Positions 43,877-61,570 of a stretch of DNA of 64,000 nt are shown piece by piece. Made by a program: the position numbers and the translations under genes. Source of the stretch: Nocardia fluminea (GTDB taxonomy: Bacteria > Actinomycetota > Actinomycetes > Mycobacteriales > Mycobacteriaceae); contig NZ_PJMW01000002.1 in the NCBI RefSeq assembly GCF_002846365.1, forward strand, positions 2,356,001 to 2,420,000, written 5' to 3'. Position 1 is the first letter of the stretch. Every line of letters starts with the position of its first letter. The notes under the pieces are model-generated. The model was not told the DNA's origin and made no database searches. It saw only the letters and a program-made list of their open reading frames with translations.

Positions 43877-45979
43877 GTGGCACAGGACGTGCTCACCGAC
43901 CTGAACAAGGTCCGCAACATCGGCATCATGGCCCACATCGATGCGGGCAAGACCACCACGACCGAACGCATCCTGTTCTACACCGGTATCACGTACAAGA
44001 TCGGTGAAGTTCACGATGGCGCGGCCACGATGGACTGGATGGAGCAGGAGCAGGAGCGTGGTATCACCATCACCTCCGCGGCTACCACCTGTTTCTGGAA
44101 AGACAACCAGATCAACATCATCGACACCCCCGGGCACGTCGACTTCACCGTCGAGGTGGAGCGATCGCTGCGCGTCCTCGACGGCGCTGTCGCGGTGTTC
44201 GACGGCAAAGAGGGTGTCGAGCCCCAGTCCGAGCAGGTGTGGCGTCAGGCCGACAAGTACGACGTGCCGCGTATCTGCTTCGTGAACAAGATGGACAAGC
44301 TCGGTGCGGATTTCTACTTCACCGTGCAGACCATCAAGGACCGTCTCGGCGCTCGCCCGCTCGTGATCCAGCTGCCCATCGGTGCTGAGAACGACTTCGA
44401 GGGCATCGTCGACCTGGTCGAGAACAACGCCAAGGTCTGGAAGGGCGAGACCAAGCTCGGCGAAGAGTACGAGGTCGTCGCGATTCCGGCCGACCTCGAG
44501 GAGAAGGCCGCGCAGTACCGTCAGGAACTGCTCGAGACCGTCGCCGAGTCCGACGAGGCACTGCTCGAGAAGTTCTTCGGTGGCGAGGATCTCACCATCG
44601 AGGAGATCAAGGGCGCCATCCGCAAGATGACGGTCAACTCCGAGCTGTACCCGGTGCTGTGTGGTTCCGCGTTCAAGAACAAGGGCGTTCAGCCCATGCT
44701 CGACGCGGTCATCGATTACCTCCCCTCCCCGCTGGACGTCGAGGCCACCACCGGCCACGTCCCCGGCAAGGAAGAGGAGCTGATCACCCGCAAGCCCAAC
44801 GTCGAGGATCCGTTCGCGGCCCTGGCGTTCAAGATCGCGGTGCACCCGTTCTTCGGTGAACTCACCTACGTGCGTGTGTACTCGGGTCAGGTCGCCTCCG
44901 GAGCCCAGGTCGTCAACTCGACCAAGGGCAAGAAGGAGCGTCTGGGCAAGCTGTTCCAGATGCACTCCAACAAGGAGATGCCGGTCGCGACGGCTTCGGC
45001 CGGCCACATCTACGCGGTCATCGGCCTGAAGGACACCACCACCGGTGACACCCTGTCCGACGCGCAGAACCAGGTCGTCCTCGAGTCGATGACCTTCCCG
45101 GATCCGGTCATCGAGGTCTCGATCGAGCCCAAGACCAAGTCCGACCAGGAAAAGCTCGGCACCGCGATCCAGAAGCTGGCGCGCGAAGACCCGACGTTCT
45201 CGGTCAAGCTCGACCAGGAGACCGGCCAGACCGTCATCGGCGGCATGGGCGAGCTCCACCTCGACATCCTCGTCGACCGTATGCGTCGCGAGTTCAAGGT
45301 CGAGGCGAACGTCGGCAAGCCGCAGGTGGCCTACCGCGAGACCATCACCAAGAAGGTCGAGAAGCACGAGTTCACCCACAAGAAGCAGACGGGTGGCTCC
45401 GGCCAGTTCGCGAAGGTCATCATCGCCCTCGAGCCGTTCGTCGGCGAAGACGGCGCGACCTACGAGTTCGAGAACAAGGTCTCCGGCGGTCGCGTGCCCC
45501 GTGAGTACATCCCGTCGGTCGACGCGGGCGCCCAGGATGCCATGCAGTACGGCGTGCTCGCCGGCTACCCGCTGGTGAACCTGAAGGTCAGCCTGCTCGA
45601 CGGCGCGTACCACGACGTCGACTCCTCGGAAATGGCGTTCAAGATCGCGGGCTCGCAGGCCCTCAAGGAAGCGGCCCGTAAGGCCGGTCCGGTGATCCTC
45701 GAGCCGCTCATGGCGGTCGAGGTCATCACGCCCGAGGATTACATGGGCGACGTGATCGGCGACCTCAACTCCCGCCGTGGCCAGATTCAGGCCATGGAGG
45801 AACGCAGTGGTGCCCGTGTCGTCAAGGCGCTGGTTCCGCTCTCGGAGATGTTCGGTTACATCGGTGACCTGCGGTCCAAGACCCAGGGTCGCGCGAACTA
45901 CTCCATGGTGTTCGCCCAGTACGCAGAGGTTCCGGCCAATGTGTCCAAGGAGATCATCGCCAAGGCGACCGGCGAATAA
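43877..45979 (+). CDS. fusA: Elongation factor G (canonical copy)
   Basis: The 700-aa GTPase drives translocation. G1 is [12 protein letters not shown] (19-30), switch I is [16 protein letters not shown]3 is DTPGHVDFT and G4 is NKMD. Domain IV carries loop [10 protein letters not shown] and the tip [11 protein letters not shown] with His579. A GTG start follows AAAAGGGAGAA. tuf follows after a 136-nt gap with a strong hairpin. Confidence 0.98.
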
Positions 45980-49173: not shown

Positions 49174-49445
49174 AGGTCGGCTCCTTGGGGTGGCGGGTCT
49201 GCTCGTTGTGACGAACCGCCGTGGCCGCGCGTTTATGCCCGCGTGGCGGAAAACCCGTCGACAGCGCGCGAGCTCCTCGCGTAGAACTTGTCGCATGGTT
49301 ACAGCACGTCCGCAGTCGCGGTTCTAGTTCGCATCGGGTCATGAAGGCGCCGGTGCGGCGCCGCGTGATCCGACGCCCGTGCCGTCCCCGGAACGCCCCA
49401 CCGGCGAGCGTCGATTCATCGACCGAACCAGCCTGGGGGCTTCCC

Positions 49446-51524
49446 ATGACCAGAATCGATCTCGCCCGGATACGCAATATCGGCATCGCCGCCCACATCG
49501 ACGCGGGCAAGACCACGACCACCGAACGGGTGCTGTTCTACACCGGTGTCACCCGGACTCTCGGCGAGGTGCACGACGGCACCGCGGTGATGGACCGGAT
49601 GATCCAGGAGCGCGAGCACGGGATCACCATCGCGGCGGCGGCGACCACCTGCTGGTGGAACGAGCACCAGATCACCATCCTCGACACCCCCGGCCACGTC
49701 GACTTCACCGTCGAGGTGGAGCGTTCGCTGCGGGTGCTCGACGGTGCGATCGCGGTCTTCGATGCCAAGGAGGGCGTGGAGCCGCAGTCGGAGCAGGTGT
49801 GGCGGCAGGCCGACAAGTACGGCGTCCCGCGGATCTGCTTCGTGAACAAGATGGACAAGCTCGGTGCCGACTTCGCGTTCACCGTGCGGACCATCGCGGA
49901 GCGACTCGGTGTGCGCCCGTTGGTGATTCAGCTGCCGATCGGTGCGGAACGCGAGTTCGAAGGCATCATCGACCTGGTCGAGATGACCGCGAAGGTGTGG
50001 CGTGGCGACACCGACCGCGGTGCTCGTTTCGAGACCGTCGAAATTCCGGAAGATCTGCGCACCAGAGCTTTCCAGCATCGTGAGGCGCTGGAGGCGGCAG
50101 TCGCCGAGGCCGATGAGGACGTGCTGGAACGCTACCTCGCGGGCGAGCCGATCACCGCCGCCATCCTGAAGGCGGCGATCCGGCGGATGACGATCGACGC
50201 ACAGGCCTACCCGGTCCTGTGCGGCTCGGCGCTGGCCAACATCGGCGTGCAGCCGCTGCTGGACGCCGTCGTCGACTACCTGCCGTCGCCGCTGGACGTC
50301 GTTGCCGTGCACGGGTTCTCGCCGGAAGGCGAGCACATCCACCGCGCGCCCGATGTCGCCGAGCCGTTCGCGGCACTGGCGTTCAAGGTCGCGCTGCACC
50401 CGTTCTTCGGCAAGCTGGTGTACCTGCGGGTGTACTCCGGTACCGCCGAACCCGGTGCGACCGTACTGAATTCGACCAATGGACGAAAGGAGCGCCTGGG
50501 CAAACTGTTCCAGATGCATTCGAGCACCGAGATCGCCGTCGAGCGGGTGCGGGCCGGGCAGATCTGTGCCGTGATCGGCCTGAAGGCGACGGGAACCGGC
50601 GACACCCTGTGCGATCGGGCAGCGCCCGTCGTCCTGGAGTCGATGACGTTCCCCGATCCCGTACTCGCCGTCTCGATCGAACCGAGGACCCGCGCCGACC
50701 AGGACAAGCTGGGCACCGCCCTGGCTCGCCTGGCCGAGGAGGACCCGACGTTCACCGTGCACGTCGACGCCGAAACCGGTCAGACGGTCATCGGCGGCAT
50801 GGGCGAACTGCATCTGGAGATCCTGGTCGACCGGATGAAACGGGAGTTCCGGGTCGACGCCGGCATCGGCGCCCCACGCGTGGCCTATCGCGAAACCGTC
50901 ACCGCGGCGGTCGATCTGTTCGAGTACACCCACCGCAAGCAACAGGGTGGGCACGGGCAGTTCGCCAAGGTGGTGATCGCGCTGGAACCACACGTGGCCG
51001 ACGACGACGCGATCTACGAATTCGAGAGCCGGGTCACCGGCGGGCGGGTACCGCGGGAGTACATCCCCGCGGTGGACGCGGGCGCGCAAGACGCGTTGCG
51101 TGCCGGCACGCTCGCCGGCTTCCCCCTGGTGAACGTGAAGGTGACGCTGCTCGACGGTGCCGCCCACGTGCAGGATTCGTCGGAACTGGCGTTCCGTCTG
51201 GCGGGCGCGGCGGCGGTTCGCGCGGCGCTCGCGCGGGCGAAGCCGGTACTGCTCGAACCGGTGATGGCCGTGGAGGTCGTGACCCCGGAGGAGTACGTCG
51301 GCGAGGTGATCGGTGACCTGAACGCTCGTCGTGGCCGGGTCACCGAGCTCACGGAACGGGGCGGCGCGCATGTCGTGCGCGCGCTGACCCCGCTCCAGGA
51401 GATGTTCGGCTACATCGGGGACCTGCGCTCCAAAACCCGTGGCCGAGCCAACTACTCGATGGTGTTCGACTCCTACGCCCCGGTCCCACCGGGTGCCGCG
51501 GAGTCGATCATCGCGGGTAGCTGA
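49446..51524 (+). CDS. fusA2: Second elongation factor G paralogue with altered switch I and domain IV tip
   Basis: The 692-aa protein aligns with the fusA product (43877) over its whole length with long identical runs, so it is a close duplicate, unlike the distant FusA2 type of mycobacteria. G1 ([12 protein letters not shown]), DTPGHVDFT and NKMDKLG are intact, but switch I reads [15 protein letters not shown] (canonical [15 protein letters not shown]; Arg61 becomes His58). The domain IV tip reads [11 protein letters not shown] (canonical [11 protein letters not shown]), keeping the tip His. ATG 49446 has TGGGGG upstream; an in-frame ATG at 49341 would add 35 Arg-rich residues. Possible roles are drug tolerance, stress or specialised translocation; none is proven. 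Confidence 0.92.
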
Positions 51525-52656: not shown

Positions 52657-53172
52657 ATGATCAATTCCACACAAAATCCCGATGTTTGCGAAACAAACGA
52701 ATCCGCAGTGGATGGCCAGTCCGTTCGGATGAGGTCGAGGACTCCGAGCCGATCTTGCGCGCAGCGCAATCTCGGGAGCAAGTGTCTACATTCCAGCTGT
52801 CCAGACGATCCCGGTGCAGCGTGCTCGGGCATGGGTAGTCGGTCCGGGGCTGTAGCTCCTGCCGCTTCTTCCGGCGGGTCCCGCAGTGAATTCCATGTCA
52901 TCGCCCGTCTCGACGCCGGTGACACTGTCGCCGATGTATTCAGCAGCGATATCGTCGATGTGGCAAGTGGTATTCGCCACACCGCTGATTGGCCGCAGTC
53001 GTTGCCGGTGCGGCCGCGCAAGGCGGTCGGTCTGGACGAGCTCGATCACGCGCTGGCCGACGCCGGGTATCAGCGCTCCAGTAGCTGGCGCAAGCGGGTT
53101 ACCAACAGCGGTGTCGTGCGCTACTTCGCCTATGCGACCACTCCCTTCTGCAACCGTGGGCAGAATCGTTAG
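52657..53172 (+). CDS. Hypothetical protein, orphan
   Basis: The 171-aa product starts MINSTQNPDVCETNESAVDG after a GTGAGG-like site. The first half has low complexity (Ser, Arg, Cys). The second half (about 77-171) looks globular: FHVIARLDAGDTVADVFSSDI and GLDELDHALADAGYQRSSSWRKRVTNSGVVRYFAYATTP. No family is recognised. The composition of the first half is unlike neighbouring genes. It may belong to the accessory element. Confidence 0.5.
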   Translation: MINSTQNPDVCETNESAVDGQSVRMRSRTPSRSCAQRNLGSKCLHSSCPDDPGAACSGMGSRSGAVAPAASSGGSRSEFHVIARLDAGDTVADVFSSDIVDVASGIRHTADWPQSLPVRPRKAVGLDELDHALADAGYQRSSSWRKRVTNSGVVRYFAYATTPFCNRGQNR

Positions 53173-53275
53173 CCCCTCGCAAAGGCGCCTCGCCTTGCGC
53201 GGTTTCTCGGACGCCGCCCTCCCTCCCGCCCTTGCTGTGCGCGCGCATGGCACAAGACCAAAGGTAAGAGACCTA

Positions 53276-53674
53276 ATGGACGTACAGATCTCGGATTCGG
53301 CAGGTGCGCAGTTGTTCACTCGTGCCGCAGCATGCGCCGGGTTCGCCCGTCGACCTCGACACGCGGCCGCCAGCACGGCCATCGGCTATGTGCGTACCGA
53401 CTTGCCCGGTCCTGGCCAGTCACAGTGTGAATCGCTGATCCGCACCGCCGCTGCCGATCTTGGCTATGACCTGCTCGGGACCCTGGTGTTCGCGGCGACC
53501 CCGCTGGACCGGCTGCAGGCCTTGGTCGCAGAGGTCGCCGTCGATGCGGTGTTGTGTCCCTCATTCGCCCACCTCGATGGACAGGTGCCCACCGAACTGC
53601 TGACGGTTACCGATGTGATCGTTGTGGACCCGCCCATCACCTACTGCCGCTGGGATCCCCAGTTTCTGGACTGA
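53276..53674 (+). CDS. Small resolvase-fold-like protein lacking the catalytic serine
   Basis: The 132-aa protein reads AIGYVRTDLPGPGQSQCESLIRTAAADLGYDLLGTLVF, LDRLQALVAEVAVDAVLCPSFAHL and TVTDVIVVDPPITYCRW. The order of strands and helices mirrors the N-terminal domain of serine recombinases, but the catalytic Ser (normally YxRVS) is replaced by Thr-Asp. No DNA-binding C-terminal domain is present. It is therefore probably a recombinase-derived accessory protein. The assignment is by pattern only. Confidence 0.5.
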   Translation: MDVQISDSAGAQLFTRAAACAGFARRPRHAAASTAIGYVRTDLPGPGQSQCESLIRTAAADLGYDLLGTLVFAATPLDRLQALVAEVAVDAVLCPSFAHLDGQVPTELLTVTDVIVVDPPITYCRWDPQFLD

Positions 53675-53773
53675 GCATTTCCGAGGCGAATCGCGGTCGT
53701 GCAGTCGTTCTCGCACCCCATGCATCCACCGTTGCCGATCACCGGCGGCGGGTCGGTCCCTTCGCGCACCATG

Positions 53774-54628
53774 TCACCGGCCACCACGCACCCCCACGGG
53801 TCTCAGCTGGCCGATGGCGGCGTAAGCGCTCAGGTTCCACGCCGCCCGATGGCGGGGTGCGATAGCCGACAACCGCCGAACTCCCTCCCCGTCGCCGTCG
53901 TCGTCGCGGTTCGGATTGGGTGCCCACCGATGCGGGGCGACCAGACCGGGTGCGAGCAGCTCGTATCCGGCGAGCATGGCCGTGATCTCGTCTCGTCCGC
54001 GTGGGTGGTAAGGGATGCCGACGCAGGCCAGGCTGTCAGCGGCTGCCTGGATGTGCTGGGGGTAGAACTCGTCGGTGACGTGGGTGAGCACGAGCCATGT
54101 CCCGACCGGGAGTCGTTCGGTCAATTCGGCGAGCACAGTGGGGGCGTCGGCGATCAATTCCGCGGTGCCCGACACACACACCGCCGCCGGTGCCGTCATG
54201 TCCATCACCGTGGTGATGTCGCGCATGATCGCGTCGGTGTCGGTGATGTCGGTATCGGTGAAGAACCGTCTAGGCGGTTCGTGCAGCATCGCCCGCCCGT
54301 GAGTGGCCGCGAGGATGTCGGTGTCGACGTACAACGTCCGCGCGGTGCTGTTGTGTTGTCCGGCGAGGTCGTGGATTTCGGGGGCGTGGGGCAGACCACA
54401 CCCCAGCTCTACGAACTGGGACACCCCGTGATGGTCGGACAGGTATTCGACCGCGCGTCGGGTGAAGCGACGGGATTCGGTGAGTGCGGGTCTGAGGGTG
54501 CTGCTTGACAGAGCGTCGGCTAGCGCCTTGTCGGTTTCGTAGTGGTCTTTCCCGCGCAGGAACACGTTGTGCAGGCGTGCGGGTGTGGGCTGGTATGGGT
54601 CGATCACGTGGGGTGGGCGGGTGGTCAC
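53774..54628 (-). CDS. DUF574 S-adenosylmethionine-dependent methyltransferase
   Basis: The 284-aa protein begins MTTRPPHVIDPYQPTPARLHNVFLRGKDHYETD, the DUF574 (Methyltransf_19) opening. The SAM motif is QFVELGCGLPHAPEIHDLA, followed by YVDTDILAATHGRAML and the VCVSGTAELIADAPTVLAELTERLPVGTWLVLTHV region. The start is GTG 54628, with GGAG 8-9 nt upstream. The natural acceptor of this actinobacterial family is unknown. Members often sit next to HTH-DUF397/DUF5753 genes, as here with DUF5753 upstream. Confidence 0.88.
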   Translation of the reverse strand: MTTRPPHVIDPYQPTPARLHNVFLRGKDHYETDKALADALSSSTLRPALTESRRFTRRAVEYLSDHHGVSQFVELGCGLPHAPEIHDLAGQHNSTARTLYVDTDILAATHGRAMLHEPPRRFFTDTDITDTDAIMRDITTVMDMTAPAAVCVSGTAELIADAPTVLAELTERLPVGTWLVLTHVTDEFYPQHIQAAADSLACVGIPYHPRGRDEITAMLAGYELLAPGLVAPHRWAPNPNRDDDGDGEGVRRLSAIAPRHRAAWNLSAYAAIGQLRPVGVRGGR

Positions 54629-55456
54629 GGTGGGGGCTCCTGCCGCGTCGTGTGCGACGGAAGGCCCCCGACCGACCCCGGGTGTCCGTGGCGAGGGCGC
54701 ACGGTGTGGGGGTGTTGGTCCGGGCCTTCCGGTGTTATCGGTCAGTGGGTGGTGTGGGTGCTCCCGGAGGTCGTTTGGGTAGCCTCCGGGAGCGTTTCCC
54801 CACCCTCGAACCGGCGGCTCGGGGGTCGCCGGTGTGGTTCGAGGTATTAGGTGGTCTTGTGGCGTCGCGGCTGTGCCGGTGCCGGGCGGTCGCTTTTGTG
54901 GGGAGTGGATCGACAAGGTTTGGTGGGCGCCGGACATCGCGACTTCGCCGGTTACGTGTCCCGGGCCCGCCTTGGCGCGCCGTGGTGAGGGTATCTCGGG
55001 TCCTCACCGGGCGCGAAGGCCATTCAGTCGGTCGGGAGTTGCGGGCTGATGACACAGGTCCGGGCAGTAAATCGGTCGCTCGTTGGGAATCAGGTGGTTT
55101 GTGGTGTGCGGTGGCGGGTGTGGGCCGTCAGGGCAACAGATAGAGCCGCTCAGTCGGCAAGCGCGGCAACCCTGCGCACATCCCGGACACGACCGCGACG
55201 GTGCACGGTCGGCGCGCACCGACCTCCTGAACGAACACGAGCGCAGCCGTCAGGCACGCCGCGAATTCGATACGGACAGTAGCGAATTGGACGAGAAGCC
55301 GGATGTCGGGTTCCTCGGGGCACGGCGACGCAGGTGGGGGTGTCATCGGGGAAGTGCTCGCTCGGCGGTGGTGAGACTGTGGCGTACCGCAGTCGAGTCC
55401 GATGGTGCCCGATCGGGTGTGGTGCACGGTGCCCCCTGGGTTGCCGGTGTGGGTGG
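54629..55456 (-). other. Structured gene-free region upstream of the DUF574 gene
   Basis: Overlapping ORFs in several frames are Arg/Pro-rich and unconvincing. Two strong hairpins lie in the presumed leader of the DUF574 transcript: CTCCCGGAGG (54761-54770) with CCTCCGGGAG (54783-54792), and CCTCGAACC (54804-54812) with GGTTCGAGG (54836-54844) with an inner GGCG/CGCC stem. A structured 5' leader or attenuator is possible. Confidence 0.5.
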
Positions 55457-56026
55457 CTAGTTGGTGGCGTGGGTGGACAGGGCGCGGTGCAGGATCGCGC
55501 GAGCGTCTTCGCCATAGGCGGCTTGGGTGGTGAGCAGTTCAAAGTTGCGTTCGGCGTTTTCGATGTCGCCGCGCCTGTGCGACACCGATATGCCGAAGAG
55601 TTCTTCGGTATCGACCCAGATTCCTTCCCCTTCCACGCCCCAGATTCTGAAATGCCTTACGGGAGTGAGAAATCGGGCGCTGAGTGGAATGATCCCGATC
55701 TTGATGTGGCTTCTGGTGGCCAAGGCCGCAAGTAGCGTGTGAATCTGTTCGGTCATCACATCGGCGCTGTCCACGGTGCGCAGTAGCGCGGGTTCGCCGA
55801 TGAGCCAGTGGTACCGGCTGCCGAGGGAGTCGAGTGTGTCTTGATGTTCGATGCTTTCGGCAAGGGTTGCCTCGATGTCGGGGTCGTCCACCCCCATGGC
55901 GTGTGTGCTGGCGACGATGTAGGCGCGCAGGTAGCCGGGTGTGCGTAGCGGGTCCGGCACGATATCGGGGTGGTAGGCGCGCTCGATGCGCGTCACTTCG
56001 CGCGGGTTGTCGTCGCGGGCGGGCAT
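55457..56026 (-). CDS. Orphan DUF5753-domain protein without HTH
   Basis: The 189-aa protein carries the DUF5753 sensor domain (IERAYHPDIVPDPLRTPGYLRAYIV, AESIEHQDTLDSLGSRYHWLIGEPALL, HIKIGIIPLSARFLTPVRHFRIW). Normally an N-terminal XRE HTH precedes it; here only about 12 residues do. It cannot bind DNA alone by that route and may act as a ligand-binding or anti-regulator partner. It lies 32 nt downstream of the coupled operon. Confidence 0.72.
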   Translation of the reverse strand: MPARDDNPREVTRIERAYHPDIVPDPLRTPGYLRAYIVASTHAMGVDDPDIEATLAESIEHQDTLDSLGSRYHWLIGEPALLRTVDSADVMTEQIHTLLAALATRSHIKIGIIPLSARFLTPVRHFRIWGVEGEGIWVDTEELFGISVSHRRGDIENAERNFELLTTQAAYGEDARAILHRALSTHATN

Positions 56027-56058
56027 GGTTTCCTTTCGGCGATCAGTTCCGGGCGAGG

Positions 56059-56553
56059 TCAGTAGGGGCCGTGGTTGCGCGGCTTGGCCGCGTCCAAGAC
56101 GTGGCGCACGCAGGCCAAGACCGCGGACCCGGACGGCCGGAACGGTGTGGTCGCGGGGACTATCCAGGTTCGGTGGGTGTGGTGGTCTGGGCTCGGGGTC
56201 GGCAACACGATGTTGCCGTCGCGGATCACGACCACGTGCGCGCGCCAGAGTTCAGCGAGTGCGGCGGGGTCACCGATCGGGCGCATGTCGGCGGTGCGGA
56301 CGAGGTAGGACCATGCTCGCGCGCGGGGGTGGCCGATGGTCGGGCATGGTCCGACGTTGCGGCGTTGCAACTCGACTTTGACTCGTTGGGCGAGGTCAGT
56401 CGGCATCATGACCGCGCCGGTCGATCCGGCCGTCATCATGATCTGCCCCGTCACGGTGTCCACGAACGTCGGTAGGCTACAGATCCGCCGGTAGAACATG
56501 CTGCGCGTGAGCGGCGAATCTTGCATGGAGGCAGCGCTTTTCGCGTACGTCAT
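56059..56553 (-). CDS. Hypothetical protein, distantly like actinobacterial Prim-Pol-type small proteins
   Basis: The 164-aa product contains TVTGQIMMTAGSTGAVMMPTDLAQRVKVELQRRNVGPCPTIGHPRARAWSYLVR and later RTWIVPATTPFRPSGSAVLACVR. The conserved pattern (GA-x-x-MP, G-P-x-I-x-HPR) is familiar from small actinobacterial proteins sometimes compared with primase-polymerase N-termini; I do not assign a function. The ATG overlaps the upstream methyltransferase stop by 4 nt. Confidence 0.55.
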   Translation of the reverse strand: MTYAKSAASMQDSPLTRSMFYRRICSLPTFVDTVTGQIMMTAGSTGAVMMPTDLAQRVKVELQRRNVGPCPTIGHPRARAWSYLVRTADMRPIGDPAALAELWRAHVVVIRDGNIVLPTPSPDHHTHRTWIVPATTPFRPSGSAVLACVRHVLDAAKPRNHGPY

Positions 56554-57284
56554 TGCCTACCCCTCGGGTGGGCGTGGCCTGGGGTCGCGGTGGCGATAGC
56601 GACGATGCGGTGGATGTCGGTGACCTCGCATCCGAACCCGGCGGCCTCGAGGAGGTCGGTGAGTTCGCCGACCGTGAGCGGCCATTCGCCGTAGGTTGAG
56701 AGCAGCCCGACCGCCTCGGCGTGGGGTAGGTGCGGGTAGAACGTTTCGGCCACTGCCGCGCGCATCGCCTCGACAGACAGAGGCGGGTCGGGCTGGACCT
56801 GGTCGGCCAAAATCAACATGCCGTCTTCCCCGAGCACGCGTCGCAATTCGCGCAGCACCGCCAACTGTTGGGTGGGTGGTACGTGGTGGAGGGTGAACGT
56901 CGACACGACCAGATCGAACCCGCCGTCATCGAACGGCAAAGCACACAGGTCGGCGTAGACGAACGACAACGACCCGCGAGCTTTGTGGGGTGCGTGGACT
57001 CTGGCTTGGTGCAGCATCGCCGGTGACAGGTCGCAACCGACGATGTCGGACTCAGGGTGCAGTCCCTGGATCAGCCGTGCCATGGTCCGTCCGCTGCCGG
57101 TGCCTGCGTCCAATGCGGTACAGGGCTCGGTGGGCAACTGCCGCGATATCTGGTCCAACACTTGTTCGCGCACGGGGGCTTGGGTGAAGTCGGTGTCGAA
57201 CCCGTTCGCGCGGCGGTCCCAGTGGGCCTCGCGCGCTTCGATCCCCGGATCGGCGGTCGGGGTGGTGTCGTATTCGGTACTCAT
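56550..57284 (-). CDS. Class I SAM-dependent methyltransferase
   Basis: The 244-aa enzyme has motif I ALDAGTGSGRT (57-67), motif II IVGCDLSPAMLHQARVH and the post-motif DLVVSTFTLHHVPPTQQLAVLRELRRVLGEDG, a Methyltransf_11-type small-molecule or tRNA methyltransferase. It is coupled to both neighbours by 4-nt overlaps. The acceptor is unknown. Confidence 0.88.
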   Translation of the reverse strand: MSTEYDTTPTADPGIEAREAHWDRRANGFDTDFTQAPVREQVLDQISRQLPTEPCTALDAGTGSGRTMARLIQGLHPESDIVGCDLSPAMLHQARVHAPHKARGSLSFVYADLCALPFDDGGFDLVVSTFTLHHVPPTQQLAVLRELRRVLGEDGMLILADQVQPDPPLSVEAMRAAVAETFYPHLPHAEAVGLLSTYGEWPLTVGELTDLLEAAGFGCEVTDIHRIVAIATATPGHAHPRGRQ

Positions 57285-57961
57285 GCCTGGGCCTCGAGAT
57301 CGATCGGTGGCTGTGCGCCGAGGTGTTCGGCCAGCAAGTCCGCGAGTCGGTCCTTAGCGGTGGTGAGGTCGGCACTGTCGCGGCCGGGGCTTGCGTGAAT
57401 GATGAACAGGGCGTCGTTGGTCTGCGGGGTGGTTTTGGACTTCTCGCACTGGCGGACTTCGAGGCGGCACAGCACGTCGTCGTGGTCGAGGTAGGCGTAT
57501 TCCCCTGCGGGCACCGGTACGGGGTCGGTGGCACCGAGGGGGACGAATCGTTCATGGCCGGTCGTTATCGCCAACTGCACATCACCGGCGATCGATGCCA
57601 GATCGTGTGCGCCGAACGCGAACCGGGTTTCTGCCGAGACCAGGTTGTAGATATCGACGAGCGGATTGATGCGAGGCAACCGTCCGGCGCGGTGCAGCAA
57701 CCGCAACAGTGTTTCCGGTGCCGCGATTTCGCTTTTCGCGGCCTTGCCGACCTGGGCGTGTACTGCCCGGAAGGCTTTGAACTCGGGTTCGGTCTTGAGG
57801 GTCTTCGGGTCCGTCGCGGCGAGTATGGACTTCTCCGAGGTCTCGATCTCGTGGTTGAGTGCCGGGCTGGTCTCCGCTGGCACGGTGATTCCGGGCACGA
57901 CGAAAGCGATGGCTTGGATACCGAGATCGCTGACCTGTTGATCGATGCTGAACGACTTCAC
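57281..57961 (-). CDS. Free-standing B3/B4 (PheT editing-domain) protein
   Basis: The 226-aa protein matches the B3/B4 tRNA-binding/editing domain (COG3382): LLHRAGRLPRINPLVDIYNLVSAETRFAFGAHDLASIAGDVQL, and EYAYLDHDDVLCRLEVRQCEKSKTTPQTNDALFIIHA. In PheRS this domain hydrolyses Tyr-tRNA(Phe). Stand-alone copies are thought to proofread tRNA or bind related amino acids, but most are uncharacterised. The coupled operon context suggests a partner methyltransferase. The start is ATG 57961. Confidence 0.82.
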   Translation of the reverse strand: MKSFSIDQQVSDLGIQAIAFVVPGITVPAETSPALNHEIETSEKSILAATDPKTLKTEPEFKAFRAVHAQVGKAAKSEIAAPETLLRLLHRAGRLPRINPLVDIYNLVSAETRFAFGAHDLASIAGDVQLAITTGHERFVPLGATDPVPVPAGEYAYLDHDDVLCRLEVRQCEKSKTTPQTNDALFIIHASPGRDSADLTTAKDRLADLLAEHLGAQPPIDLEAQA

Positions 57962-58164
57962 TTCGTCTCCTCATTGGTTGGATGAAATGCGTTGCGGGCG
58001 TGGGGCAATCGTTGATCGCGTGACGCGGTCGCATCGTCTGTGGGTGTGGCGGGCGCTGTTGTTAGCCACCCGGCTTCGCGCATTCCCTCGAGCGTTCGGA
58101 CGAAATCGGTAAGCGATCGGCGGAACTTGAGTGCGTCGCCGGGATGATTGGTCTCTTGAGTCAT
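57958..58164 (-). CDS. Small hypothetical protein
   Basis: The 68-aa acidic/basic mix begins MTQETNHPGDALKFRRSLTDFVRTLEGMREAGWL and ends with a disordered Thr/Asp tail. It overlaps the genes on both sides by 4 nt. The helical N-terminal part could be an adaptor or leader protein. No family is recognised. Confidence 0.6.
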   Translation of the reverse strand: MTQETNHPGDALKFRRSLTDFVRTLEGMREAGWLTTAPATPTDDATASRDQRLPHARNAFHPTNEETK

Positions 58165-58385
58165 GGGGCGGCGCTCCACTGCCCGCGCCGGTTTGCCCAC
58201 GCGAGGTTCTTCGCCCGCAGCGAGTTAGTGGCGCGACGAACTTCGCGCACCTGGCGACCGGTACGGCGCGCAAGGGCGTCGAGGGTGAGCAACCCGCCCG
58301 GTGCAAGGATCTCGAGCACCGAACGCTCAACTGTGGTCAGGTCGTAGTTCTGTTGCGGCTCAATATAATTCGAAGGGTCTCGCAC
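58161..58385 (-). CDS. Small winged-helix protein, first gene of the coupled operon
   Basis: The 74-aa product has a compact wHTH: LTTVERSVLEILAPGGLLTLDALARRTGRQVREVRRATNSLRAKNLAWANRRGQW. GTG 58385 follows GGGGAG; an ATG at 58460 would add a 25-residue stretch without similarity. It may regulate its own operon or the divergent XRE gene. Confidence 0.68.
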   Translation of the reverse strand: MRDPSNYIEPQQNYDLTTVERSVLEILAPGGLLTLDALARRTGRQVREVRRATNSLRAKNLAWANRRGQWSAAP

Positions 58386-58572
58386 GACGTCTCCCCGTGT
58401 GTGTGCGCCCCCGCGCTGGTACCGGCTGCCGGACCATCGCGTCTGGGTTACGTTTGGCACCCGCCCAGCCGACCTCCCGTGGCCGCCGAATTTCGGCGGG
58501 CGGTAGGCATTTCAGACGACTGACCCGAACCACTCGGCTAGGTGCGTAAACCAAACATTAAGTACCAGCGCG

Positions 58573-58601
58573 CTATCACACTGATAGAAAACTATCAGTG
58601 T
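58573..58601. promoter_or_regulatory. Three-half-site operator between the divergent operons
   Basis: CTATCA (58573-58578), TGATAG (58582-58587) and CTATCA (58592-58597) form two overlapping dyads. The second extends to ACACTGATA (58578-58586) with TATCAGTGT (58593-58601). They sit just upstream of TACCGT (58609-58614), the probable -10 of the leaderless XRE transcript. Confidence 0.7.
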
Positions 58602-58620
58602 TGGCCTGTACCGTTGTGGT

Positions 58621-59856
58621 ATGAACCCAGATATTCCGCCGCTCCTGATCGAGGGCATCGGTGACCGCATCAAGATCTACCGCGAGGCCGCTGGGCTGTA
58701 CCAAACGCAGCTCGCGGCGCTGATCGGCAAGTCGACCCCGTGGGTGTCGCAGGTCGAGCGCGGCATCCAGGCGGCCGAACGGCTCCCGGACCTGATCAAC
58801 ATCGCCAACGCCTGCCGATGCACGCTGACCGACCTGCTCGGCGGTCCGCTTGACTCGCTCACCCGCAGTCCATCGCCACGCGGAGCTCAGGTCGCGAAGG
58901 TGCGCGAGGTCATCATGCGAACAGCGCTGCCGATCTTGGCACCCTCGTCAACACCGCCTACTCCACCCGAGCTACTCGGCCGACGGGTCGCGCAGGCGTG
59001 GCAGACCTGGCACAGTTCCCCGACCGCGCACGATGCCGTTGGGCGCGTATTGCCTGATCTGATCGCTGACGTGAACGCCGCGTACCTCACCGCCGACGAC
59101 AAACGTGGCGCTGCTCGCCTTCTGTCGGGCACCTACCAAATCGCCCGTATTTGGTTGCACCACCTGCCCGAGCCCGAGCTCGCCTGGGTGACCGCGGAAC
59201 GCTCGGTATCGACAGCGCGCGAAGCTGACGACCCGCGTTTACTCGCACTCGCCGCGTGGGCGATGTCGGCAAGTTACCGCCGTGCCGGTCAGCAAGAGGA
59301 AGCCACGCGGGTATGCCTGGCAGCAGCCGACGACCTGAAACGCCTACTCGCGGTCGATTCCTCGAACGACCTTCTCGCCGCGTTCGGGATGCTCAACTTG
59401 GCCGCCGCCATCTCCTCTGCGCAATCCGACCAGTCCGGTCGGGCGTGGGCCCTACATCAAGCGGCCGAAGAGGCGGCCCGAGCGCTGGGCAACACCTACG
59501 ATCCGTGGACCATGTTCGGCGTCGGCAACGTTGATGTTCACGGCTTGGCGATCTCGGCCGAATTGGGCGACCACGACGCGGTTGTAGATCGCATCTCGCG
59601 ACTGAACACCGACCGGATTCCCTCGGTCGAACGCCGCTCTCGGCCGCTGATCGACGCGGCACGTGGATATGTGCAGCGCAAAGAGGACTACGCGGCTGTC
59701 ATGTCGCTGCTCGAGGCCGAGAAGATCTCTTCCGACGAAGTGCACGACTCCGGTCTCGTGCGCGAACTCGTGCGTGAAATCCTTGTCCGCGACCACGCAC
59801 AGGCCCGACCACACACACGCGCCCTCGCCAGGCGTTGCCATCTACTCATCGACTGA
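58621..59856 (+). CDS. XRE-family regulator with TPR-like C-terminus
   Basis: The 411-aa protein has an N-terminal HTH (IGDRIKIYREAAGLYQTQLAALIGKSTPWVSQVERGIQAAERLPDLINIANACRCTLTDLLG) and a long helical repeat region (about 120-400), including ARLLSGTYQIARIWLHHLPEPELAWVTAERSVSTAREADDPRLLALAAWAMSASYRRAGQ, resembling TPR/RRNPP-style peptide-sensing or protein-interaction repeats. ATG 58621 lies 6 nt after TACCGT, consistent with a leaderless transcript. It is divergent from the B3/B4 operon. Confidence 0.85.
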   Translation: MNPDIPPLLIEGIGDRIKIYREAAGLYQTQLAALIGKSTPWVSQVERGIQAAERLPDLINIANACRCTLTDLLGGPLDSLTRSPSPRGAQVAKVREVIMRTALPILAPSSTPPTPPELLGRRVAQAWQTWHSSPTAHDAVGRVLPDLIADVNAAYLTADDKRGAARLLSGTYQIARIWLHHLPEPELAWVTAERSVSTAREADDPRLLALAAWAMSASYRRAGQQEEATRVCLAAADDLKRLLAVDSSNDLLAAFGMLNLAAAISSAQSDQSGRAWALHQAAEEAARALGNTYDPWTMFGVGNVDVHGLAISAELGDHDAVVDRISRLNTDRIPSVERRSRPLIDAARGYVQRKEDYAAVMSLLEAEKISSDEVHDSGLVRELVREILVRDHAQARPHTRALARRCHLLID

Positions 59857-59885
59857 TCGGCAGTGTGTCTGATGGAATCTTCACC

Positions 59886-61373
59886 GTGACCGCGAAATGG
59901 GATGCCTACCGTGCCGCTGATCTGCTCGCGACTGTAGCGGCAGAGCTGGATCGACAAGGACCGCCCGATCGCCTGCTGCGCCGCGCCGCAGCAGGATTGG
60001 CGAATATCTGTGCCGAAGAGCTCGACCAACGCACTGGTGGCATCTACGGACGCCGGGTGGCGATGTTGGTCGGCACCGGCAACAACGGCGCTGACGCGCT
60101 CCTGGCGGGCGTCCGCTTACAGCGCCGAGGCGTGCATGTCGACGCAATACTCGTCGGCGACACCGCCTACGAACCCGGCATACGCGCCCTCGGCCGTGTC
60201 ATCGGCGTGGACAATATCGAAGCCGCCGACGAAGCGATCAGCCGAGCCGACCTTATCGTCGACGGCATCATCGGTGAGAGTGGAGTCGGCCCGCTACGTG
60301 GCCGCGCTGCTGAACTCGTCGCCGCAATACCGACCCTGACACCGGTGATCGCCGTCGACCTGCCCTCAGGTGTTGACCCAGACACCGGCGAGGTCAACGG
60401 TCCCCACGTCAAAGCCGATGTCACCGTGACGTTCTCGGCCGCGAAGGGCTGCGTGCTGATGCCGCCCGGAGCTTATGCCGTTGGTTCGTTGCGGATGGTC
60501 GACGTGGGTCTGCCACCGGTCACGGGTGATCCGATCGCGTGCCGCCTCGGTGACGCCGAGATCGCGGCGCGCTGGCCGGTACCGCAACGCACCTCGCACA
60601 AGTACACACGCGGTGTCCTCGGTGTTGTCGCGGGATCTGATGCCTACCCCGGTGCCGCAGTCCTCGCGGTCATGGGCGCGGTGCAGTCCGGCGTCGCAGG
60701 CATCACCCGATTCGTCGGCCCGCCCGCAGTAACCGCGCAGGTCCTGTCCGCTGTGCCTGAAGCCGTGCCCGGTATCGGACGTGTGCAAGCCTGGCTGCTG
60801 GGTAGTGGTGTCGAAGATGACGACGAACAAGACCACGCCATCGACACCGCCCTCGCCTCTGGGCTGCCGTGCGTAGTGGACGCCGGCGCCCTCGAAGCAT
60901 TGGTAGCCCATCGCAAGGCAGGCAATCGCACAGCCTCCGCTGACCAGGTACTGCTCACCCCGCACGCGGGCGAGATGGCTCGCATCATGGGATGGCTCGG
61001 CAAAGAGGTTCCCCGAGCCGAGGTCGAAGCCCGCCCACGGCACTACGGTGTCGAGATCGCACGCGCGTTCGAAGTGACGGTACTGGTCAAGGGAGCGACG
61101 ACGCTGATCGCGCGACCGGACGGCCTGGTCGCGAGCCAAGCCGAGGCCCCGCCATGGCTGGCGACCGCAGGAGCCGGTGATGTGTTGGCCGGAATTGCCG
61201 GTGCGCTCCTGGCCGCTGGACTCGACGCATTCGATGCGGGGGAGATGGCGGCATTCATACACGGCCGCGCCGCAGCGCTCGCGCACCAACGCCGAGGAGG
61301 AGGCCCGCTCACCGCGACGGCGGTCGCTGACGCCACACCCGAAGCGATCGGCCAACTTCTCGAGGCTAGATGA
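59886..61373 (+). CDS. nnr: Bifunctional NAD(P)H-hydrate repair enzyme (epimerase plus ADP/ATP-dependent dehydratase)
   Basis: The 495-aa protein fuses YjeF_N (epimerase; GTGNNGAD at 63-70 where GNNGGD is usual, VIAVDLPSGVDPDTGEV) with a ribokinase-like dehydratase (TSHKYTRGVLGVVAGSDAYPGAAVLA, LLTPHAGEMARIMG, ATAGAGDVLAGIAGALLAAG with catalytic Asp432). It repairs damaged NADHX/NADPHX. GTG 59886 is chosen; GTG 59865 and TTG 59835 are possible, the last overlapping the XRE gene. A Gly-to-Ala change in the N-terminal loop may affect epimerase activity. Confidence 0.88.
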   Translation: MTAKWDAYRAADLLATVAAELDRQGPPDRLLRRAAAGLANICAEELDQRTGGIYGRRVAMLVGTGNNGADALLAGVRLQRRGVHVDAILVGDTAYEPGIRALGRVIGVDNIEAADEAISRADLIVDGIIGESGVGPLRGRAAELVAAIPTLTPVIAVDLPSGVDPDTGEVNGPHVKADVTVTFSAAKGCVLMPPGAYAVGSLRMVDVGLPPVTGDPIACRLGDAEIAARWPVPQRTSHKYTRGVLGVVAGSDAYPGAAVLAVMGAVQSGVAGITRFVGPPAVTAQVLSAVPEAVPGIGRVQAWLLGSGVEDDDEQDHAIDTALASGLPCVVDAGALEALVAHRKAGNRTASADQVLLTPHAGEMARIMGWLGKEVPRAEVEARPRHYGVEIARAFEVTVLVKGATTLIARPDGLVASQAEAPPWLATAGAGDVLAGIAGALLAAGLDAFDAGEMAAFIHGRAAALAHQRRGGGPLTATAVADATPEAIGQLLEAR

Positions 61374-61387
61374 AGATGGATAACACC

Positions 61388-61416
61388 GAGTCGAGGGAGC
61401 ACGGCGTGTACCGGGA
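61388..61416. repeat. Direct repeat copy 1 of a 29-nt element
   Basis: The element runs from GAGTCGAGGG to GTGTACCGGGA. It matches positions 62398-62426 with one mismatch (A versus T after the GAGTCGAGGG block). The copies lie on the same strand, 1010 nt apart, bracketing the 61571 and 62125 genes. Confidence 0.75.
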
Positions 61417-61570
61417 TGCCCCGGCCGACATGAGGTGTGGGCTTAGGAACGCAAGGAGCGGGCCTTCACGCGCAGGCAGTCCCACGCGGAGCTCAAAAGC
61501 GTTTGTAGCGGCGTAGTTTGGTGGGCTGTCGGGGGGTGCGGTGTCGCTCGTCTGGACCTAGAGTCGAGTC

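Follow-up and report, generated by a model that had tools for sequence, protein, structure and literature searches.

The window considered here, a stretch of 64,000 nucleotides from Nocardia fluminea (contig NZ_PJMW01000002.1), carries five successive genes that code for a small winged-helix protein, a 68-aa protein (s68), a B3/4 domain protein, a class I S-adenosylmethionine (SAM)-dependent methyltransferase and a 164-aa protein (u164). These five genes do not make up a natural unit. They are two things, a cassette present in multiple copies in Nocardia and a B3/4-methyltransferase pair, and it is this pair, rare as it is, that constitutes the conserved unit. We tentatively read the pair as a trans-editing and detoxification module directed against a methionine analogue and lodged in one copy of the Nocardia cassette, a reading to which we give slightly less than an even chance.

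A conserved gene pair within a multicopy cassette

The B3/4 and methyltransferase genes are adjacent in three readable lineages, namely N. fluminea together with N. salmonicida (locus L039), N. amamiensis (L128) and Catellatospora tritici (L186), the last two being species names that we infer. The two frames share 4 nt in N. fluminea and N. salmonicida, 1 nt in N. amamiensis (from the first in-frame ATG) and 8 nt in C. tritici. In the first-pass annotation of this DNA, a SAM methyltransferase was said to be coupled to a free-standing domain of the tRNA-editing type. Both identities are borne out by Pfam, PF03483 being the sole match of the B3/4 protein, which is thus a stand-alone domain with no synthetase core, and adjacency in three lineages upholds the coupling as a non-random association. 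As to whether the gene set is random across genomes, the two-gene core is conserved, whereas the five-gene set is largely two things joined. More indirectly, the longest contigs of the B3/4 and methyltransferase clusters have the same size in N. fluminea (277,322 bases) and for one 18,004-base contig. Two further Nocardia, with contigs of 46,769 and 200,781 bases, have methyltransferase and u164 clusters that coincide in name and contig size, which fits these genomes having the same form as the window.

The pair is rare. Of Nocardia genomes, 6 of 148 (E 1e-3) and 3 of 150 (E 1e-20) have a match to the window B3/4 protein; across the class, 81 of 394 genomes gave a match (E 1e-3), all at 24–35% identity except the window genome itself and two at 40–48%. 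Searches with the C. tritici protein returned 0/22, 1/397 (the window genome) and 1/300 (C. tritici itself). Among plasmids, 96 of 72,556 records have a B3/4 match, all below 60% identity, and among phages 4 of 50,697. No match to the window methyltransferase was obtained at 29 actinobacterial B3/4 loci (L139–L167; flanks of about 1.5 kb, E 0.01), 28 of which show the B3/4 match itself, and among 11 loci taken more widely it was present only in N. amamiensis. A Patescibacteria locus (L075) has a methyltransferase-like match at 25% identity on the opposite strand.

The remaining genes belong to the cassette. With 24 of 42 candidates scored, the window genome has 13 matches of the u164 family, and each of 148 Nocardia genomes (148/148) has one or more. 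A small winged helix, s68, a small open reading frame (ORF) of family F3, a DUF5753 protein (F4) and a Methyltransf_19 protein (F1) recur around its copies. The copies that were fetched collapse to 40 distinct places, 11 of them more distant and 29 close, the latter being the best-scoring u164 matches plus a few chosen ones rather than a random sample. At 20 of the 29 close places s68 directly abuts the u164 gene, and these abutting s68 genes end in ATGA (13/20) or GTGA (2/20), the s68/u164 junction itself having been read at 7 distinct places. An iterated profile did not recognise s68 at 7 of the 29. The two others are those of the window and N. salmonicida, where s68 is some 1.4 kb upstream of u164 and the B3/4 and methyltransferase genes stand in between, an arrangement confined to these two among the close places. 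A winged-helix profile matches upstream of u164 at 15 of the 29, the window counted, L025 being doubtful in that the same stretch is matched by both the s68 and the winged-helix profiles; each profile was built up by iteration (E 1e-3) from one short sequence, so that individual calls may err. Neither s68 nor the winged helix was recognised at the 11 distant places. Genes in unannotated loci were called with a script based on GC content at third codon positions (GC3), and some starts are over-called.

In the window, each junction shares 4 nt, reading ATGA, GTGA, ATGA and ATGA from the winged-helix gene to u164; the four overlaps described at first pass are thus all present, but one is GTGA and not ATGA. 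Such overlaps are frequent in operons of high GC content. Since s68 also abuts u164 in copies without the pair, overlap coupling is a feature of the cassette, which suggests that a tight ATGA overlap at such loci in Nocardia is a sign of the cassette slot, not of a protein complex. Given its rarity, the pair would appear to have been inserted into the cassette here, rather than lost elsewhere.

The closest named relatives of the window B3/4 and u164 proteins are from Nocardia, and the nearest named locus is that of N. salmonicida, whose proteins are 94% (B3/4), 97% (methyltransferase) and 95% (u164) identical to those of the window, with s68 kept over 52 residues at 71%. The genes look real, to judge from this conservation. 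The s68/B3/4 and B3/4/methyltransferase overlaps are also retained there, the methyltransferase/u164 junction being a 3-nt gap, and a profile search recognised no winged-helix gene upstream.

Relationship to CtdA and the partner methyltransferase

The nearest solved structures to the window B3/4 protein are those of CtdA, 9f7e (E 5.1e-12; profile E 1e-22) and 9mkl, with the distant beta subunit of phenylalanyl-tRNA synthetase next. CtdA is a stand-alone B3/4 canavanyl-tRNA-Arg deacylase that is active without its synthetase; a guanidine riboswitch is frequent at its genes and not required, and a canavanine-degradation operon adjoins them in two legume-associated species (PMC10018355). COG3382 in Clostridiaceae has been tied to ykkC/mini-ykkC riboswitches (PMC3766115). 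Like CtdA, the window protein is a stand-alone B3/4 domain of about 230 aa. It is likely to deacylate aminoacyl-tRNA, because it is homologous to CtdA.

The two proteins differ in several respects. In the printed alignments the window protein has H119 and E168, whereas both solved CtdA chains have E119 and N168, columns that presumably line the pocket. Column 119 holds E in 87 and H in 11 of 111 aligned sequences; at the 29 actinobacterial loci mentioned above, H119 occurs only in L139 and L140. In a FastTree phylogeny of 150 rows (152 less fragments shorter than 170 aa; midpoint root; rows partly duplicate, as with L128/P0006 and L186/P0007), the 47 H119 rows all fall into a single clade (support 0.943), in which none of the 86 E119 rows is found. 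The 13-row subclade of the window, among whose other members are N. fluminea, N. rhizosphaerihabitans and the 18,004-base contig, has a support of 0.997, one inner branch having 0.276 and the next branch out 0.169. On this tree, the window clade is separate from the CtdA clade. A guanidine-I riboswitch was found at 11 of 19 loci scanned, all 11 being E119/N168, and the 8 others comprise 7 E119/N168 loci and one H119 locus (L043). There is no Rfam match in positions 53000–61500 of the window at E up to 1, nor in L128, L186 or L039. This absence alone says little, because 7 of the 18 scanned E119/N168 loci also lack a riboswitch.

These observations bear on the possibility that the B3/4 protein is a CtdA equivalent acting on canavanyl-tRNA-Arg, with the methyltransferase and the methionine genes described below as incidental neighbours. 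CtdA is indeed the closest solved and characterised protein, and a distant homologue from C. perfringens (35% identity) also edited canavanyl-tRNA-Arg (PMC10018355). Yet the E119/N168 combination, a mark of CtdA by our own criterion and not one from the literature, is present in both solved chains and at 11/11 riboswitch loci and absent from the window protein, the H119 and E119 groups separate in the tree, and, more weakly, no riboswitch was matched. The partner of the window protein is, moreover, a methyltransferase, accompanied by MetK and methionyl-tRNA synthetase (MetRS) in two islands. We consider equivalence with CtdA unlikely.

The methyltransferase is confidently modeled as a class I fold (predicted local distance difference test, pLDDT, 90.0), and its nearest structures are generic: the Trm112 partner 6f5z, phosphatidylethanolamine N-methyltransferase, AtmM and BelI/CysG. 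A His pair, H133-H134, is invariant in ten methyltransferase sequences and aligns with that of 9fce, the Asp ligand lying outside the aligned stretch; BelI/CysG-type O-methyltransferases are metal-dependent, with a His-His-Asp metal site (PMC11408123). PDB entries 9fcd and 9fce are CysG/BelI O-methyltransferases, not azetidine-carboxylate (AZE) synthases. An AZE synthase role, in which SAM would be converted to azetidine-carboxylate and the B3/4 protein would provide self-protection, was considered and rejected. The AZE synthases AzeJ and VioH share with the window protein a class I methyltransferase fold that uses SAM, and carry the signatures PFNxxGN, RxxYYxxC and FY (PMC11794875). Unlike them, the window protein and its nine relatives lack PFNxxGN and RxxYYxxC, as checked by eye in the ten-sequence alignment, FY being too short to judge.

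Methionine genes beside the pair

At two loci the pair stands among methionine genes. The N. amamiensis row reads MetK, MetRS, B3/4 and methyltransferase, and the C. tritici row reads SAM_HAT_C, MetK, B3/4, methyltransferase, a TIR-pentapeptide protein and MetRS. A divergent AAA/TPR protein of the C. tritici locus is 36% identical to the counterpart adjoining the N. amamiensis row. The protein that precedes the C. tritici island MetK (L186:7402–8229) matches PF20257, the C-terminal domain of SAM hydroxide adenosyltransferases, and its N-terminal part matches no Pfam family at E 0.001. The two pair-bearing island genomes (G096 and G997) each have two MetK genes and two strong MetRS matches; G000, G128, G062 and G900 have one MetK gene each. 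The island MetKs share 72% identity with one another and 54–60% with the housekeeping MetKs of these six genomes, their own included, and for that reason they form, by sequence, a lineage apart from the housekeeping copies.

The two island MetRSs have different affinities. The C. tritici enzyme shares 72% identity with the housekeeping MetRS of the same genome. The N. amamiensis enzyme, with the motifs HLGN and KFSTS, is 34–37% identical to Catellatospora MetRSs (37% to their housekeeping type) and 25–26% to three Nocardia housekeeping MetRSs (G000, G128 and G062). Because they differ in origin, MetRS seems to have joined the pair twice. This apparent double recruitment is the strongest single hint of a methionine-like substrate, and comes from two loci.

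From this neighbourhood at two loci we infer the specificity for a methionine analogue; the role and target of the methyltransferase are likewise suggested by the neighbourhood. According to the favoured reading, the locus would be a regulator cassette, one of multiple copies in Nocardia, with a conserved two-gene module inserted in it. The free-standing B3/4 protein would hydrolyse a wrongly charged aminoacyl-tRNA in trans, as CtdA does, its most likely substrate being a tRNA, probably tRNA-Met, charged with an analogue of methionine or with an amino acid derived from SAM, and not canavanyl-tRNA-Arg. The methyltransferase would spend SAM on modifying, and probably inactivating, that same amino acid or else its free precursor. 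In the N. amamiensis and Catellatospora islands, the second MetK and second MetRS would shield the SAM-making and tRNA-charging steps, and the Catellatospora island would add a SAM hydroxide adenosyltransferase-like gene. A precedent that works alike is FthB, a fluorothreonyl-tRNA-Thr deacylase, also a free-standing editor acting against an amino-acid analogue; unlike the window protein, it is described as related to ProXp-ST1, not to B3/4 (PMC11295145), and it protects an organofluorine producer (reference cited in PMC11295145).

Several observations weigh against this reading. The link to MetK and MetRS is seen at two loci only, the cassette form in only two readable genomes, and the window genome itself has one MetK and one MetRS, neither adjoining the pair (the profile met its MetRS in two pieces and also gave weak matches to other synthetases of class I). 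G900, from the same genus as C. tritici and pair-negative at the cut-off used, has a second MetRS-like match (E 8.5e-79), and an extra MetRS thus occurs without the pair. The structural matches of the methyltransferase are generic as to substrate, and the TIR gene within the row of C. tritici may hint at defence. Elsewhere in the H119 clade the B3/4 genes keep different company, with no MetK or MetRS match among these neighbours. Directly after the B3/4 gene, two Burkholderiales metagenome-assembled genomes (L040 and L041) have a flavin amine oxidase gene (PF01593), as does L042 by eye. In Faecalibacillus intestinalis (L043:7014–7943), the gene of a PALP-family pyridoxal-phosphate enzyme, cysteine synthase-like by eye and possibly a link to sulfur amino acids, ends about 40 nt before it. 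Glutaminase and gamma-glutamyl cyclotransferase lie near it in L044, and the Frankia-type loci L168 and L169 have an LEH/SnoaL-type and an LEH gene upstream, respectively, L169 also having a leucine-carboxyl-methyltransferase-like gene about 3 kb off. Two genes upstream in L168 stands a Methyltransf_25 gene (E 5.4e-12) that is unlike the window's, so that a methyltransferase beside an H119 B3/4 protein need not mean methionine. Because these neighbours vary, and are mostly amino-acid or detoxification-type genes, the H119 clade fits a group of editors with varied substrates, which warns against extending the methionine reading to the whole clade.

Apart from equivalence with CtdA, three other explanations have to be weighed. 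The genes could serve tRNA-dependent synthesis of a small molecule, MetRS charging the tRNA, the methyltransferase modifying the amino acid on the tRNA or after release, and the B3/4 protein freeing the product by ester hydrolysis. MetK, MetRS, B3/4 and methyltransferase would together make a self-contained path, and the C. tritici locus has an EamA transporter, a DAO-family FAD oxidoreductase and a flavodoxin close by. The cassette form, however, has no MetK or MetRS adjoining the pair, and none of the 9 genes scanned in L128 and 10 in L186 has a peptide-synthetase domain; we hold this explanation, too, to be unlikely.

A role in antiphage defence, with the B3/4 protein and the methyltransferase acting on tRNA or SAM during infection, appears more doubtful still. 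TIR proteins lie near both MetK/MetRS islands (TIR-TPR in N. amamiensis, TIR-pentapeptide in C. tritici), the latter (L186:10907–12142) matching PADLOC TIR-TM at E 3.2e-56, and the methyltransferase matches PADLOC mad2 (E 3.4e-20) and a phage tRNA-methyltransferase family (E 5.5e-19). The mad2 match, however, spans positions 265–421 of a 492-position model, probably the part common to methyltransferases in general; PADLOC and PHROGs gave no match for the B3/4 protein, and of the ten window proteins scanned by Pfam none has a TIR domain. Least credible of all is a stoichiometric complex of the five proteins under winged-helix control, which the first-pass annotation had drawn from the four overlaps: s68 and u164 are coupled without the pair at most close cassette places, the winged helix is unrecognised in N. 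salmonicida, and neither s68 nor u164 was found beside the pairs of N. amamiensis and C. tritici.

Features of the locus and implications

Table 1. Genes of the cassette copy, the pair and the divergent regulator, in window coordinates.
Feature	Coordinates	Strand	Remarks
Winged-helix gene	58161..58385	minus	74 aa from GTG at 58385; HTH_15/DprA_WH matches just below cut-off
s68 (68-aa cassette protein)	57958..58164	minus	Pfam-negative; iterated-profile matches in other cassette copies
B3/4 domain protein, 226 aa	57281..57961	minus	PF03483 E 9.1e-22; GAHD...CRLEVRQ subfamily; predicted aminoacyl-tRNA deacylase
Class I SAM-dependent methyltransferase, 244 aa	56550..57284	minus	Methyltransf_25 E 3.8e-22; partner of B3/4
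u164 (164-aa cassette protein)	56059..56553	minus	Pfam-negative; possible degenerate Prim-Pol-like fold
DUF5753 cassette gene, without recognised helix-turn-helix	55457..56026	minus	PF19054 E 8.3e-25; family F4, 8 members
Small conserved cassette ORF, family F3	55128..55427	minus	11 members, window counted
Methyltransf_19 (S-adenosyl methyltransferase) cassette gene	53774..54937	minus	PF04672 E 1.4e-55; family F1, 15 members, window counted; start probably over-called
Divergent XRE-type regulator	58621..59856	plus	HTH_31 E 2.2e-9

The row extends past the five genes originally delimited, to the DUF5753, small ORF and Methyltransf_19 genes on the same strand (Table 1). An alternative start of the winged-helix gene at 58460 would give 99 aa. 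Pfam returned nothing for the s68 and u164 proteins up to E 0.1. For u164, for which a degenerate Prim-Pol-like fold is possible, Foldseek gave no match at E 0.001 in the PDB or in a viral library. The NCBI label "DNA-directed RNA polymerase subunit beta" carried by many u164 relatives looks like a propagated misnomer, no support for the name having been found. The F3 ORF, which stands beside u164 here and at ten other loci, ends in LYLLP, LFLLP or LYLQP in most members and has no PHROGs match. Insertion-sequence genes lie near the cassette copy L119, and one reverse transcriptase/group II maturase family lies downstream of the copies L119, L122 and L123 of the window's genome (Pfam on the L119 member only). 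Elsewhere in the window, a second EF-G-like frame (49221–51524; 767 aa as called) stands about 1.9 kb past tuf, the other being a fusA-like frame at 43877–45979, both by eye. The cassette resembles the Streptomyces XRE-DUF397 regulator pairs, which are also repeated actinobacterial loci that combine XRE regulators with small proteins (PMC10364602), and differs from them in its s68, u164 and Methyltransf_19 genes and, here, in the B3/4 protein and methyltransferase. Among the ten window proteins scanned, Pfam gave no DUF397 match, and no wider search for it was made.

The first-pass annotation recognised no earlier description of such a combination, a view that is supported for the pair and needs qualifying for its deacylase component. 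A B3/4 protein with a methyltransferase, MetK or MetRS was recognised in no open-access description, whereas stand-alone B3/4 deacylases are already known (CtdA, PMC10018355), so that the elements that seem new are the methionine/SAM neighbourhood and the methyltransferase partner.

Beyond the cassette, the pair could form, with a MetK lineage dedicated to it and a MetRS that it has recruited, the core of an undescribed methionine-antimetabolite island with a trans-editing factor for tRNA-Met, a proposal that we advance with some hesitation, as possible rather than probable. Free-standing editors are known for arginine, threonine, proline and alanine tRNAs, and we know of no free-standing post-transfer editing enzyme for tRNA-Met. 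If the proposal is true, trans-editing would extend to a methionine-type error, and the pair would serve as a marker in genomes for organisms that produce a methionine analogue or respond to one.

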